In this document: positions 58,695-63,457 of the stretch, in pieces
Layout of the letters: each line of letters begins with the position of its first letter
Numbering within the stretch: the stretch's first letter is position 1
Assembly (NCBI RefSeq): GCF_030816725.1
Contig: NZ_JAUSYG010000001.1
Span: 434,001-498,000 of the forward strand
Length of the DNA stretch: 64,000 bases
Reading direction: 5' to 3'
From: Pseudarthrobacter defluvii
Lineage (GTDB): Bacteria; Actinomycetota; Actinomycetes; Actinomycetales; Micrococcaceae
Position numbers and translations under genes: made by a program
The notes under the pieces: model-generated
The model's input: only the letters and a program-made list of their open reading frames with translations
What the model was told of the DNA's origin: nothing
The model's database searches: none

Positions 58695-59634
58695 ATGAGT
58701 GAAACTTCCGAGAACCGCGGCTACGCCACTGAAACCCTGGACCTGCCGGGGTGGAAACACATCTACTCCGGCAAGGTGCGCGACCTGTACGAGCCCGCCG
58801 ACGAGTCCGTCCTGCAGCGCGTTGGCCAGGATTGCGTGCTGGTGGTGGCCAGCGACCGCATCAGCGCCTACGACCACGTGCTGTCCAGCGAAATCCCCGA
58901 CAAGGGGCGCATCCTCACCCAGCTGAGCCTCTGGTGGTTCGACCAGTTGGGCGTTGAACACCACGTGCTCGGTTCCACCGTGGAGGACGGCGTGCCGGCC
59001 GAGGTTGAGGGGCCGGGCAATGATCTGCAAGAAGCTGGACATGTTTCCGGTGGAGTGCATCGCCCGGGGCTACCTCACGGGGTCCGGGCTGCAGGAGTAC
59101 AAGGCGTCCGGCACTGTGTGCAACATCCCGCTGCCGGAAGGGCTGGTGGAAGGATCGCGGCTGGAGCACGCCATCTTCACCCCGTCGGCTAAGGCCCTGA
59201 TCGGCGAACACGACGAAAACATCACGTACGACGCCGTGGTGGCGCTGGTGGGGGACGATATTGCGGGCCGCCTGAGCGAGCTGACGCTCAAGATCTACAC
59301 GACGGCGGAAAAGATCGCCCGGGAGCGCGGCATCATCCTGGCGGACACGAAGGTGGAATTCGGGTACGACGCCGTCTCCGGATCCATCACGCTGGGCGAT
59401 GAAGTGCTCACGCCGGATTCCTCGCGGTTCTGGGATGCCGCCACCTACAAGCCAGGCCAGGCCCAGCCGTCCTACGACAAGCAGTACGTGCGGGACTGGC
59501 TGACGTCGGCCGAGTCCGGCTGGGACAAGTCCTCAGATGCGCCGCCGCCTGCACTCCCTTCCGACGTTGTGGAGCGCACCCGCAGCCGGTACGTCGAAGC
59601 GTACGAGAAGATCACGGGAAAGACGTTTTCCTAA
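58695..59634 (+). pseudogene. purC: SAICAR synthetase, frameshifted
   Basis: Phosphoribosylaminoimidazole-succinocarboxamide synthase. The first frame runs from ATG 58695 ([33 protein letters not shown]) to VPAEVEG. The second frame continues [20 protein letters not shown] then TGSG, LADTKVEFGYDAV and FSRFWD-like ATP/Mg motifs to the stop at 59634. They meet at a GGGG run (about 59008-59011), where one G is extra; removing it yields a single 312-residue protein of normal size. De novo purine synthesis needs this enzyme, so a homopolymer miscall is likelier than a real mutation. It overlaps purD's end by operon spacing of one base. Confidence 0.92.
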
Positions 59635-59694: not shown

Positions 59695-60963
59695 TCAGCT
59701 GGCCTTTGAAGCGGCGGCTTCGGCGCGTTTCTGTGCCAGCTTTATTTCAAGAATCGCGTCCAGTGCCTGCTGGACGAGGTCCTGTGCCCCCGCCGAACTG
59801 AAGGCTTTCTGGGCCTCCTGTAGGTAGATGAGTGCTTCGTCGGGCTCCCCCGCAGCCTTAAGGGTTTTACCCAATAGGAGCGAAACCTCACCCGCCGTGT
59901 GCTTGGCCAACGCTTCGCGCTGCGCATGGATGTCGCGCAACTTCCCGATGGCGGCCAATACATCGCCTGTGAGGTACAACCATCTGGCTCGAATGAAAGC
60001 CACTTCCAGCTCGTCACTCTTCATTCCGTGCACGATGGAAAAAGCCAGCTCTGCCCGTTCAATTGATGCGAGCGTTTCGGGTTCAACGATTCCTGATTGG
60101 AGGCGGACAGCCGCGGACGCCTTGTTGAACCGCGCCCACATTTCTATGTCGTTTGCTGGCGAGAGAAGCCTTGCGGCCCGCTCATGCTCCTTGACCCCCT
60201 CCTGGTAGTCGTGCCGCATGAAAGCCACGTTACCCACCACCCAGGCCACTTCTCCGGCTAGTTGGGGCATAGTGCTTTCGTTGACCTGTCCGCTGAGCTG
60301 CTGGCAGTACCTCCAGGCTTCTTCCAGCCGGCCGCTTTCCGCGAGTACCCCGATGAGGACCCGCAGCGCACCAATAATGATGGTGGAACTCTTGGGCAAT
60401 TGTTCAGCAAGCTTCATCGCCTCCAACGCCTCGTCCACCGCAGCGGAAAGCTGGCCCTCCCGCTGCAGGACGGCAGCCATCATCTGCCGTGCGCGGACCC
60501 CCAAGCCCACTGATTCACGGGCCATCGGATGCTCAACCAGCCGCGCGATGATCTGCTTACAGTCCTGAAGGTCACCGTGCCTCATGAGACACTCGGCCTG
60601 CATGTAGGTCATGTTCCACCACGCGCTGGTGTTCCTACCTTCCAGTGCATATTGAGCCGCAGTTGCCGCATGACCGGCTGCCAAGGCGTAGTCACGCAAG
60701 TCCCAGGCCTGCCGAGCATAGAGCCCAGCGAGAACGTACTCAGCGTCACTAAGGGAAACCGGCTGGCTCCAAGCCTCCAGCGCCTTGGGAGCCAACTCGA
60801 GCCGGCGTGCCAACTCCTCGATTACTTCGGCGGTAGGTTCCCTCCGGCCCGTCTCGAGCAGAGAGATGTAACTCGGAGAATACAGGTCCTTACCGAGTTC
60901 TGCCTGTGTCAGTCCGCGCTCAAGGCGCTCCGCCCGGAGCTTTTCTCCGAATCCGTTGCCCAA
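59695..60963 (-). CDS. XRE-type HTH regulator with TPR domain (RRNPP-like peptide receptor candidate)
   Basis: 422 residues. An N-terminal lambda-Cro/XRE helix-turn-helix (about 5-60: KLRAERLERGLTQAELGKDL then YSPSYISLLETGRREP) is followed by an all-helical region to the end with about eight TPR-like pairs (for example ALAAGHAATAAQYALEGRNT, LEEAWRYCQQLSG, ALIYLQEAQKAFSSAG). This order and length equal those of NprR-type RRNPP quorum sensors, which bind a secreted peptide re-imported into the cell. TTG 60963 is chosen: AGGAGG lies seven bases upstream; an ATG directly behind that site is in the wrong frame. Divergent from the small secreted peptide gene 129 bases away, its probable signal. A different role, such as general stress regulation, is not excluded. 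Confidence 0.85.
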   Translation of the reverse strand: MGNGFGEKLRAERLERGLTQAELGKDLYSPSYISLLETGRREPTAEVIEELARRLELAPKALEAWSQPVSLSDAEYVLAGLYARQAWDLRDYALAAGHAATAAQYALEGRNTSAWWNMTYMQAECLMRHGDLQDCKQIIARLVEHPMARESVGLGVRARQMMAAVLQREGQLSAAVDEALEAMKLAEQLPKSSTIIIGALRVLIGVLAESGRLEEAWRYCQQLSGQVNESTMPQLAGEVAWVVGNVAFMRHDYQEGVKEHERAARLLSPANDIEMWARFNKASAAVRLQSGIVEPETLASIERAELAFSIVHGMKSDELEVAFIRARWLYLTGDVLAAIGKLRDIHAQREALAKHTAGEVSLLLGKTLKAAGEPDEALIYLQEAQKAFSSAGAQDLVQQALDAILEIKLAQKRAEAAASKAS

Positions 60964-61002
60964 GGGACATCCTCCTCTCTGGACGGTCTTCGCCCCAAAC
61001 GC

Positions 61003-61042
61003 TTGACAGCCCCTGTGGAAAACATTTTACAATGAGTGTCAA
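61003..61042 (+). promoter_or_regulatory. Promoter and candidate operator of the peptide gene
   Basis: TTGACA (61003-61008) and TACAAT (61028-61033), spacer 19 bases. TTGACA is mirrored by TGTCAA at 61037-61042, and ACAG-CCC-CTGT lies at 61006-61016 just downstream of the -35. These repeats are suited to binding by the divergently encoded XRE regulator. The region also must hold the regulator's own promoter. Confidence 0.55.
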
Positions 61043-61092
61043 CAAGGGCAGTGCTGAAGTGTAACGAATCCGACTCGTATTGAGGAACAAAC

Positions 61093-61308
61093 ATGTTGAA
61101 AAAAATTGCAGCCGCTGCTGTATTGGCTGGTGCCTTGGCATTCTCTGCGGCCGCCCCCGCAGTGCTGTCGGCCGGCTCCCTGACTGACAACTCAGACACT
61201 TCGGTAGCAAGCGGAAACTGGCCGAATCCGATGTCCAGCAAGACCAAGGATAAGAAGACCGATACCACGTACGTCACCTACAGCGGCAACTGGCCCAACC
61301 CGATGTAG
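61093..61308 (+). CDS. Secreted pro-peptide with two SGNWPNPM motifs (candidate signalling peptide)
   Basis: 71 residues. A signal peptide (about 1-27: MLKKIAAAAVLAGALAF, then cleavage near VLSAG) is followed by a short polar spacer. The octapeptide SGNWPNPM occurs at residues 40-47 and again at 64-71, the exact C-terminus; between them is a basic KTKDKK stretch. The two DNA copies differ at three codon third positions (GGA/GGC, CCG/CCC, AAT/AAC) and at no amino acid, implying selection on the peptide. GAGGA precedes ATG 61093. Divergent from the XRE-TPR gene. I infer a Phr/NprX-like signal precursor processed outside the cell; a small bacteriocin or wall peptide is the alternative. Confidence 0.75.
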   Translation: MLKKIAAAAVLAGALAFSAAAPAVLSAGSLTDNSDTSVASGNWPNPMSSKTKDKKTDTTYVTYSGNWPNPM

Positions 61309-61335
61309 TAGTTTCCTCACCACAGGAGGCGAAGG

Positions 61336-61373
61336 AACAGCCCCGGAGCAACAGCTCCGGGGCTGTTCGTTTT
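61336..61373 (+). terminator. Strong intrinsic terminator of the peptide gene
   Basis: Perfect 14-bp stem (61336-61349 with 61354-61367), AACA tetraloop, followed by CGTTTT; gives the peptide gene its own monocistronic transcript. Confidence 0.9.
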
Positions 61374-61630: not shown

Positions 61631-63457
61631 TCAGACCAGCGAGTCCTTCCACGCCCCGTGCAGGTCGGCGAACCGTCCGCCGCCGCCGATCAGTTCGTCG
61701 GGCGTGCCGTCCTCCACGATGCGGCCGTCGTGCACCACCAGCACCCGGTCTGCCGTCTCCACGGTTGAAAGCCTGTGGGCGATGATCAGCGCAGTCCTCC
61801 GTGCCGCTTCAGTTCCGGCCAGCAGGCGGGCCAGCCCTGCCTGGACCAGGCGTTCGGACGGGATGTCCAGGGAGGAGGTGGCTTCGTCCAGGATCAGCAC
61901 CGCCGGCCGGGCCAGGAAAGCCCTGGCGAAGCTGATCAGCTGCCGTTGGCCGGAGGAGACCCTGCCGCCGCGTTTGTTGACGTCCGTGTCGTAGCCTTCG
62001 GGAAGTTCAAGGATGAACTCGTGGGCGCCAACAGCCTTGGCTGCCTCTTCGATTTCCGCCCGTGAGGCTTCCGGCCGGCCCAAAGCGATGTTGTCCGCAA
62101 CTGAACCGCTGAACAGGAAAGCCTCCTGGGTGACCATGACGATGTTCCGGCGAAGGTCGGCAGTGGCCAAGTCCCGGAGGTCCACCCCATCAAGGGTGAG
62201 GGCGCCGGAGGTGACGTCGTAGAACCGGGCGATGAGTTTGGCCAGGGTGGATTTTCCGGCGCCCGTCTGTCCCACCAGCGCCACGGTCTGACCGGCCGGG
62301 ATGTGCAGGTCCAGGCGGGGGACCACCAGCGGGCCGTCGCCGTAGCGGAATTCGACGTCGTTGAAGTCGATCCGTCCGGTAGCACTCGGCAGGGCCACCG
62401 GGTTCTTGGGCGGCCGGACTGTGGGGACTTCTTCGAGCAGCCCGGAGACCTTTTCCAAGGCGGCCTGCGCACTTTGGAACGAGTTATAGAACATGGCCAT
62501 CTGGTCCACCGGCTGGAAGAACCGCTTGGTGGAGAGGATCAGGGCGAGGAGCACGCCGACGGCCAGGTCGCCGCCCAGCACCCGGAACCCGCCAAAGAGC
62601 AGGACAACTGCGACGCAGACGTTGCCGATCAGCACCAGCCCCGGCTGGAAGATGCCGTTGAGGTTGATGGAGCGGACGGTGACCAGCCGGTAGTCCTCAG
62701 CGAGCTTGCCGTAGCGCTCGGAGTTCTCCTTCTCCTTGCGGAAGGCCTTGACGGCGCGGATGCCGGTCATGGTTTCCACGAAATGCACAATCAGGCGCGC
62801 GGAGACCACCCGGGATTCCCGGAAGGCGATCTGCGAGTGCTTCTGGTACCAGCGGGAGAGGAAGAACATGGGCACCCCGGCGGCCAGCACCAGCAAGCCG
62901 CTCCGCCAGTCCAAGGCAAAAATGGTGATCGCGGTGAAGGCCATGAACAGCATGCCCGAGGCCAGGGAGCTGACGCCGGAATCGAGCAGTTCGCGCAGTG
63001 CCTCCAGGTCCGAGGTCTGCCGGGCGATGATCCGGCCGGAGGTGTACTTTTCGTGGAACTCCAGGCTGAGCCGCTGGGTATGCCGGAACACGCGCACCCG
63101 CAGGTCCAGCAGCATCGCCTGGCTGAGCCGCGCCGTGGAGGTGACGTACAGGGCGGTGAGTCCCGCCGTCGCAATAGCTGCCAGCAGGTAGGCGGCGCCG
63201 GTGAACACGAGAGGGAGGTTGTCGCCGGCCTGGAGTGCGGGAAGCGCGTGGTCGATGCCGAAGGCGATCAGCGTCGGGCCGGCCACGCGCGCTGCCTGCG
63301 AGAGGACCACCATGGCGATGGTCAGCCAGAACCGTACCCGCACCGGACGGATCAGCGACCCCAGCAAGGCGAGCGACCGCCGTCGTACTGCCCTGCTGTC
63401 GCTCTTGCTGAGGTGGGCATTGTCTTCATTGGCGGTGCCGAACGTTGCGGTGCTCAT
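61631..63457 (-). CDS. ABC transporter, fused membrane and ATPase (exporter, second half)
   Basis: 608-residue type IV ABC exporter half-transporter. Six membrane helices (about residues 40-330) precede the nucleotide-binding domain: Walker [10 protein letters not shown] (about 393), Q-loop VTQEAFLF, signature VSSGQRQL (degenerate relative to LSGGQ), Walker [13 protein letters not shown] and switch His in [11 protein letters not shown] 63457 overlaps the stop of the preceding gene (ATGA), so the two make a heterodimeric exporter. Substrate unknown (lipid or drug type). Confidence 0.92.

Follow-up and report, generated by a model that had tools for sequence, protein, structure and literature searches.

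In a 64,000-nucleotide stretch of the genome of the soil actinobacterium Pseudarthrobacter defluvii (contig NZ_JAUSYG010000001.1, positions 434,001 to 498,000; the whole stretch is referred to here as the window), a gene for a regulator with an XRE-type helix-turn-helix (HTH) and tetratricopeptide repeats (TPRs) lies divergent from a gene for a small precursor with two copies of an octapeptide. We consider it probable (roughly 0.77) that this locus encodes a complete peptide-pheromone circuit of its own, operating in the manner of the RRNPP systems found in Bacillota. The sequence-level evidence comprises the pairing of the two genes across genomes, conservation of the repeats, sharply defined octapeptide edges, joint changes in ligand and receptor residues and conservation of an operator. 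An earlier note on this DNA had read the locus as a receptor/signal pair and had named three outcomes that would speak against it: no co-conservation of the two genes, no conserved C-terminal octapeptide, or a TPR domain with no peptide groove. All three were tested, and the reading is supported. The core features are as follows (window coordinates).

59695-60963, minus strand: receptor (regulator) gene, 422 aa, TTG start; XRE-HTH plus TPR
Receptor residues ~4-66: XRE-HTH domain; Pfam HTH_31 and HTH_3 above cut-off
Receptor residues 71-391: eight TPR-like helix pairs, with a cap helix at 394-421, in the AlphaFold2 model
61093-61308, plus strand: proposed pheromone precursor gene, 71 aa
61093-61173, plus strand: signal-peptide-like N-terminus MLKKIAAAAVLAGALAFSAAAPAVLSA, by hydropathy and charge only
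61210-61233, plus strand: octapeptide copy 1, SGNWPNPM
61282-61305, plus strand: octapeptide copy 2, SGNWPNPM, abutting the stop codon

This architecture, which the earlier note had described, is borne out by the open reading frames (ORFs), the Pfam HTH match and the AlphaFold2 model, and both genes are found where it had placed them; the two octapeptide copies are identical, the second C-terminal. The start codons of the two genes are 129 bp apart, and the precursor is single copy in the 4.58-Mb genome. Its N-terminus starts with KK and continues with a hydrophobic segment, so that by hydropathy and charge it resembles a Sec-type signal peptide, and this part is strongly conserved in the precursor family. 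Three silent differences, and no others, separate the two octapeptide copies of the window.

A scan of species genomes recovered at least 42 precursor loci, all from genomes named Arthrobacter or Pseudarthrobacter. Every one of these precursors ends with the octapeptide; the version in L032 is SGNWPYPV, with a decayed first copy, and the others carry 2-4 copies of X-G-N-W-P-D-P-M/A/V. Adding loci found through the receptor, in the same genus and two neighbours, brings the number of unique precursors to 73. At least two copies are present in 71 of the 73 (L032 and L050 fall outside this group), and 67 of the 71 hold identical copies only; the others are L071 (one GNLPDPM), L040 (residue 1 is V, V, V and I) and L075 and L076 (the last residue varies). 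The octapeptide is the exact C-terminal end in 64 of the 73, and copy number across precursors ranges from 1 to 8. Over 191 copy pairs, the proportion of silent differences (pS) is 0.522 versus a proportion of amino acid differences (pN) of 0.0076, which indicates that the copies are old and that selection on the peptide has kept them identical. At both octapeptide edges entropy rises abruptly while the linkers drift, and the mature peptide is thus likely to be those eight residues. Among 5.8 billion proteins we found 284 precursor homologues, and 118 of the best 120 end with the octapeptide. Residue 6 is N in 22 of the 119 readable homologues among the matches listed, window included, and D in most (GNWP[DN]P); the N of the window is, by sequence, a shared pherotype. 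The expectation that the C-terminal octapeptide would be conserved while linkers drift therefore held, but NWPNPM is not the general end: it is one pherotype, and D is commoner. Source names of the 120 homologues listed are 'hypothetical', 'low-complexity' or evidently wrong, and none names a signal. Wrong-looking labels include Streptococcus pneumoniae for P0048, on a 352-base contig, and phage tail protein and opacity antigen among P0022, P0039 and P0046.

The receptor changes together with its proposed ligand at two sites.

60568-60585, minus strand: codons M127-L132; includes residues 127 and 132, both of which co-change with residue 1 of the octapeptide
60460-60465, minus strand: codons Q167 and R168; the first of these residues co-changes with residue 1 of the octapeptide, and R168 accompanies T or S there

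We compared 63 receptors of the window's genus, using a receptor tree built without the tested columns. Where octapeptide residue 1 is V, the receptor has I127 and W132 (26/26); where it is I, the receptor has M127 and L132 (28/28) and H167 (27/28); and in the nine rows with T or S, Q167 is present in 9/9 and R168 in 8/9, with W168 in L032. At residue 167, one I-type row, L040, departs from this pattern. Its precursor has three V-type copies followed by a final I-type copy, and its receptor is I-type at 127 and 132 and V-type at 167; L040 looks like a transitional pherotype. The receptor tree implies 11 changes of octapeptide residue 1. The best of 247 variable columns is residue 132, with nine changes, all nine on residue-1 branches (8.5e-13), followed by residues 127 (7 of 10 changes on such branches) and 167 (5 of 7). 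Recombination was rejected as the cause: there is no excess at the silent third positions of 162 invariant residues (overlap of 0.069 in residues 115-175 compared with a base rate of 0.075; no position passes 1e-3), and exchange of DNA blocks thus does not explain the co-change. Two further candidates were set aside. Co-change with octapeptide residue 8 (M/A/V) is diffuse and forms no local patch, and the pairing of N-for-D at residue 6 with receptor changes seen only in the window (for example, L396 and N228) was abandoned, since receptors for peptides with N or H at residue 6 retain R396. The model puts residue 127 close to the C-terminal end of the TPR2 A helix, residue 167 likewise in TPR3, and residue 132 at the start of the TPR2 B helix, so that the patch plausibly forms one surface. 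Co-change of residues 127, 132 and 167 with octapeptide residue 1 supports binding of the peptide by the receptor.

The two genes are also paired across genomes. The regulator faces the precursor in 42/42 of the at least 42 precursor-selected loci and is 76-84% identical to that of the window. Because these loci (L001-L042) were chosen by precursor and are biased towards pairing, receptor-selected loci were counted apart. Receptor homologues occur in 135/295 genomes of the family (E<=1e-30), 26/396 of the order (E<=1e-20; outside the family all in family f17, at 27-33% identity) and 69/394 of the class (E<=1e-15); the loci read are part of these. An exported mini-ORF with a Trp-Pro (W-P) motif faces the receptor in 66 of 103 receptor-selected loci read (50/85 with HTH, 16/18 TPR-only), compared with 5 of 103 in an 800-bp downstream control (3/85 and 2/18); both TPR-only control matches are one real tandem-locus precursor, seen twice. 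The co-conservation anticipated for the two genes is thus found in both kinds of sample, and HTH and TPR-only receptors both pair with W-P peptides. These counts follow a stricter rule, in which identical receptors count once and L043, L044 and all loci above L153 are left out; a looser rule had counted doubtful ORFs (for example, L089, L090 and L124). Under the stricter rule, L082 is credited through a wrong frame, although the right frame exists, and L124 is doubtful. The two TPR-only misses are L138, a repeat of L117 with its upstream side cut off, and L092, which is not a clean TPR-only gene.

The motif tracks receptor clade: XGNWPDPM, VGNWPDPS, FVGNWPDAV, ATGNWPNVV, PGIWPDS, VWIWPDS, VGEWPH, VGDWPH (6-8 copies), IGDWPN, IGWWPN and TGIWPY, with VGGSWPT in f17. 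W-P motifs are still present beside receptors that are merely 27-45% identical. Of 43 further class-level loci, 29 have an exported mini-ORF in divergent orientation whose tail is W-P-like or CC, compared with 4 of 43 downstream, a descriptive count given that the rule was written after the sequences were seen; examples are DIGWP repeats and Jiangellaceae precursors that end in PDWPGMCC or SPGEFCC. CC is also the end of the divergent exported mini-ORFs at most of L173-L182, L186, L187, L189-L196, L198, L199 and L203, many of which are Jiangellaceae loci. One 42-aa Jiangellaceae precursor used as a database query gave no match, and no convincing W-P mini-ORF was seen beside the 3 that were read of 41 Streptomycete plasmid homologues (25-29% identity).

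The shared control region has its own conserved layout.

61003-61042, no strand assigned: proposed operator TTGACA-N28-TGTCAA; left arm 61003-61008, right arm 61037-61042
61082-61087, plus strand: GAGGAA, similar to a ribosome-binding site, before the precursor ATG and within the conserved 5' leader
61335-61368, plus strand: strong hairpin after the precursor gene (dG -34.1 kcal/mol, z -7.9), a possible terminator

Repeats in this region, which the earlier note had reported, are present as the inverted repeat of the operator, and the intergenic region is strongly conserved in 62 sequences of the genus. The box pair TTGAC[AG]-N28-TGT[CT]AA persists across genera to about 45% receptor identity. 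Of 121 unique HTH loci, 76 have it, and under the looser rule each of these also has a W-P precursor; most of the 76 are close relatives and not independent. It occurs in 0/18 loci with an HTH-less receptor and in 0/29 HTH loci that were counted as precursor-less. Within 22-35, no spacing but 28 occurs, and shuffles give none. The operator left arm doubles as the -35-like box of the precursor gene, and a DNA-bound receptor would thus be expected to repress that gene. A promoter and terminator belonging to the precursor had also been proposed, of which the -35-like box and the hairpin stand; a sigma-70 scan (16-18-nt spacing) called no promoter, with the TTGACA box as the sole clear element, and a terminator scan did not call the hairpin, the U tract of which is weak. 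The precursor 5' leader (61043-61087, TAACGAATCCGACTCGTATTGAGGAA) is almost invariant in the genus and matches no Rfam family at E<=0.1.

TTGACA-N28-TGTCAA is present in 41/41 genomes of the genus, once in 38; in three there is a second match, without the inner consensus, which we take as chance. The window's genome has exactly one perfect site. A regulon search by operator gave one further site, with a single mismatch and no similar core, and two-mismatch sites show no usable excess over a backward-read control. With only one full operator, on its own promoter, the closed autoregulatory loop could serve homeostasis, and the peptide might be a private signal of secretion or envelope state rather than of density, taken up again by the same cell or acting before export; the strong conservation of the signal-peptide-like N-terminus would suit such a role. 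Repeated switching of octapeptide residue 1 together with the receptor patch resembles, however, the divergence of pherotypes, something that a private signal would not require, and we regard this alternative as unlikely.

Pheromone reception calls for a peptide-binding surface, and the modelled TPR domain offers a candidate.

60124-60243, minus strand: segment W241-N280 (A helices of TPR5 and TPR6), with W241, N245, W276 and N280 invariant or near-invariant; proposed peptide-anchoring groove

The concave side of TPR domains is lined by A helices. These are more conserved here than B helices (mean entropy of 1.57 versus 1.98), and W241, N245, W276 and R287, all in A helices, are invariant among 40 aligned receptor sequences; the peptide groove that had been anticipated is therefore plausible in the modelled superhelix. 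N245 is kept in 39/39 receptors counted as having a W-P partner, in 18/18 TPR-only rows and in 23/29 HTH receptors counted as lacking a precursor. In Rap-Phr, the peptide is anchored by a conserved Asn (Rap105 Asn220; Asn220/226) (PMC11343458). Rap105 Asn220 falls near receptor residue 245-246, a position interpolated only from alignment end points (71-392 versus 45-365).

HTH_31 scores 45 bits on the receptor (cut-off of 27), establishing an N-terminal HTH, and Pfam TPR models reach it only below their cut-offs. The AlphaFold2 model, made with 40 homologues as input, has a mean predicted local distance difference test score of 91.9 and shows an HTH domain of five helices ahead of eight helix pairs and a cap helix; its TPR part takes the superhelical form seen in Rap, NprR and AimR. 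PlcR-PapR7-DNA is rank 14 in the Foldseek list, and VIA-align scores are 24.2 for Rap, 22.3 for NprR and 21.0 for AimR, with a second AimR alignment (20.8) covering receptor residues 2-413. Viral structural matches are generic repeat proteins. The modelled fold fits RRNPP, although it is no proof of it.

Several results weigh against a pheromone circuit of the RRNPP kind. Non-RRNPP folds outscore the known receptors in VIA-align (APPBP2 27.9, MalT domain III 26.1), and in profile comparison PlcR is matched (E 2.3e-8) over the HTH and first TPRs only, with designed repeat proteins scoring better. Strongly supported branches of the receptor tree give only 3-4 independent contrasts for the co-change; these agree in nearly all random pairings and are not significant. 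Furthermore, 37 of the 103 receptor-selected loci have no W-P partner, and 16 of the 37 belong to one clade of genus g24 (L085-L087, L089-L091, L093, L095, L099-L103, L106, L108 and L116). All 16 lie beside purC and are nested within pheromone-bearing receptors, which makes secondary loss of the precursor likely; this clade has no convincing neighbouring W-P precursor and no operator, and loss, eavesdropping or a distant precursor are possible. A looser W-P search of 33 precursor-less receptor loci found nothing convincing except a 32-aa ORF in L110, and the L081 precursor searched against seven g24 genomes (six with a locus read) gave a best E of 0.0018, inside a 364-aa frame.

The pair sits between purD-purC and tRNA-Pro, followed by an exporter of the ATP-binding cassette (ABC) type.

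61631-63457: ABC exporter gene (Pfam ABC_membrane and ABC_tran)

Among 92 loci with both HTH receptor and W-P precursor, 84 have purC and/or an exporter relative in the flanks read, compared with 0 of 18 TPR-only rows, and this constant position suggests that the HTH type has been inherited vertically at a single site. No phage match was found in 50,697 phage records (E<=1e-5), and none of 11 candidate stretches was confirmed in viral contigs. Seven SBP_bac_5 proteins are encoded in the genome, with no link to the octapeptide. Within the window, purC (58695-59634) is split over two frames around 58970-59010, and the two ORFs match the SAICAR synthetase profile over 1-66 and 68-231; this is either a real frameshift or an assembly error.

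The exporter, a relative of which is found in 65 of the 92 loci, could instead suggest that the precursor yields a secreted antimicrobial or other effector peptide and that the regulator is a local control gene only, and short exported precursors beside a regulator also occur among ribosomally made peptides. Since the precursor carries what looks like a Sec-type signal, the ABC exporter gene may simply happen to lie next to it. Residues of the receptor's TPR domain co-change with the peptide, W-P motifs persist at low receptor identity, and the neighbours identified (purD, purC, tRNA-Pro and the ABC exporter, from the subset of ORFs scanned) include no peptide-modifying enzyme, all of which make an effector peptide improbable. 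A small membrane toxin with an XRE-type repressor, in the manner of a toxin-antitoxin pair, would account for the hydrophobic N-terminus and the divergent regulator but is very improbable, as selection acts past the hydrophobic segment, on the octapeptide copies, precursors hold anywhere from 1 to 8 of these copies and a 422-aa TPR receptor would be needless.

For the pheromone circuit that we favour, we infer a route of export, cleavage, import, binding, regulation and output. Sec would export the 71-aa precursor, cleavage on both sides of each copy would free SGNWPNPM, and an oligopeptide permease would take the octapeptide up again. Inside the cell, the octapeptide would bind the concave groove of the TPR domain of the cytoplasmic receptor, where conserved residues such as W241, N245, W276 and N280 may hold the invariant G-N-W-P core and the patch at the TPR2/TPR3 edge (127, 132, 167 and 168) may read residue 1. 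Binding would alter the spacing of the two HTH domains in the dimer and so its grip on TTGACA-N28-TGTCAA. The proposed operator overlaps the -35-like box and also sequence immediately past the likely -10, for which reason repression of the precursor gene by the DNA-bound form is expected; the peptide would release the receptor as AimP releases AimR, giving positive feedback.

TPR-only receptors start almost at TPR1, form one clade apart from L092 and have no operator. Four such loci were read further out (L258-L261), three of them with domain scans (all but L260). In L259 (3456-8154), the receptor gene overlaps a GGDEF-EAL gene by 4 bp and a GAF-histidine kinase gene is close by; in L258 (3577-9048), GGDEF-EAL and GAF-histidine-kinase genes lie beside the receptor, together with DUF7793; and in L261, DUF7793 and GGDEF-EAL genes are several kilobases away. 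Such neighbours suggest that these receptors may steer cyclic di-GMP (c-di-GMP) output, and thus a peptide input into c-di-GMP signalling. Tandem TPR-only receptors occur in L117/L138/L150 and L121/L260, with W-P precursors before or between them; the precursors carry IDDWPH and KVGNWPGS in one genome and KVGNWPD four times in another.

It is an even bet, in our judgement, that Actinomycetes own an old and diversified pheromone superfamily of exported mini-proteins with a W-P code and TPR receptors in two forms, the HTH form with its own pheromone and long-spacer operator, and the TPR-only form with c-di-GMP and histidine-kinase genes. The proposed code, at the end or repeated, would take in XGNWPDPM, VGDWPH, IGWWPN, VGGSWPT, DIGWP and PDWPGMCC, and the superfamily may be independent of the Bacillota RRNPP systems. 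If the circuit is real, a pair conserved through Arthrobacter and Pseudarthrobacter, with relatives in Jiangellaceae and probably other groups, would open peptide communication in a phylum of antibiotic producers. Ligand sequence, receptor, specificity patch and operator are all in hand, and each step is directly testable.

Published accounts portray the signals of Actinobacteria as typically enzyme-made small molecules and RRNPP signalling as a Firmicutes affair (PMC10075063, PMC13220807). In a 2016 review, 'TPR' figures among the quorum-sensing candidates predicted by bioinformatics for Streptomyces, Rhodococcus, Saccharopolyspora and Thermobifida, not for Arthrobacter, and the available portion names no such peptide (PMC4748050). 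Among the titles and abstract starts listed in our open-access literature search (without preprints or subscription journals), none describes an actinobacterial RRNPP-type pair or these W-P peptides; NWPDPM had no match, and two papers with GNWPD or GNWPN are unrelated by title. Actinobacterial HTH-TPR regulators include those of the NsdA type, for which we know of no peptide ligand. The NCBIfam model NsdA_fam_reg gives a weak match to one relative of the receptor, from Jiangellaceae (32 bits, cut-off of 75), and none to the window receptor at E<=0.01.

The RRNPP(A) definition calls for a peptide-binding domain of 5-9 TPRs in a superhelix (PMC6458997). The modelled receptor has eight helix pairs and a cap, and its divergent neighbour of 71 aa lies within the 10-100 aa of an adjacent short precursor. 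All members but Rap carry an N-terminal HTH, and their mature pheromones have 5-10 residues; the conservation boundaries of the putative peptide here delimit eight. NprR-NprX and PlcR-PapR of the Bacillus cereus group differ from the present pair, which has repeated octapeptides with a W-P core and divergent genes; sequence similarity to PlcR is also weak. Rap-Phr (Phr105, Phr3T) is alike in having several pheromone copies, identical in Phr105, and drifting linkers in one exported precursor, whereas Rap has a three-helix bundle instead of the HTH (PMC11343458) and the TPR-only branch here has almost nothing before TPR1. AimR-AimP, the arbitrium system of Bacillus phages, is encoded by temperate phages, whereas this locus is chromosomal, by purC and the exporter and without phage or viral match, with divergent genes and another peptide sequence. 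The AimR operator consists of two 6-bp boxes with 25 bp between them, spacers of 23-28 bp are bound about equally well, and AimP releases AimR from DNA (PMC6458997); the proposed operator is alike in layout, with two 6-bp inverted boxes and a spacer of 28 rather than about 25. In our judgement the locus works like an RRNPP system, whether or not it descends from known members.
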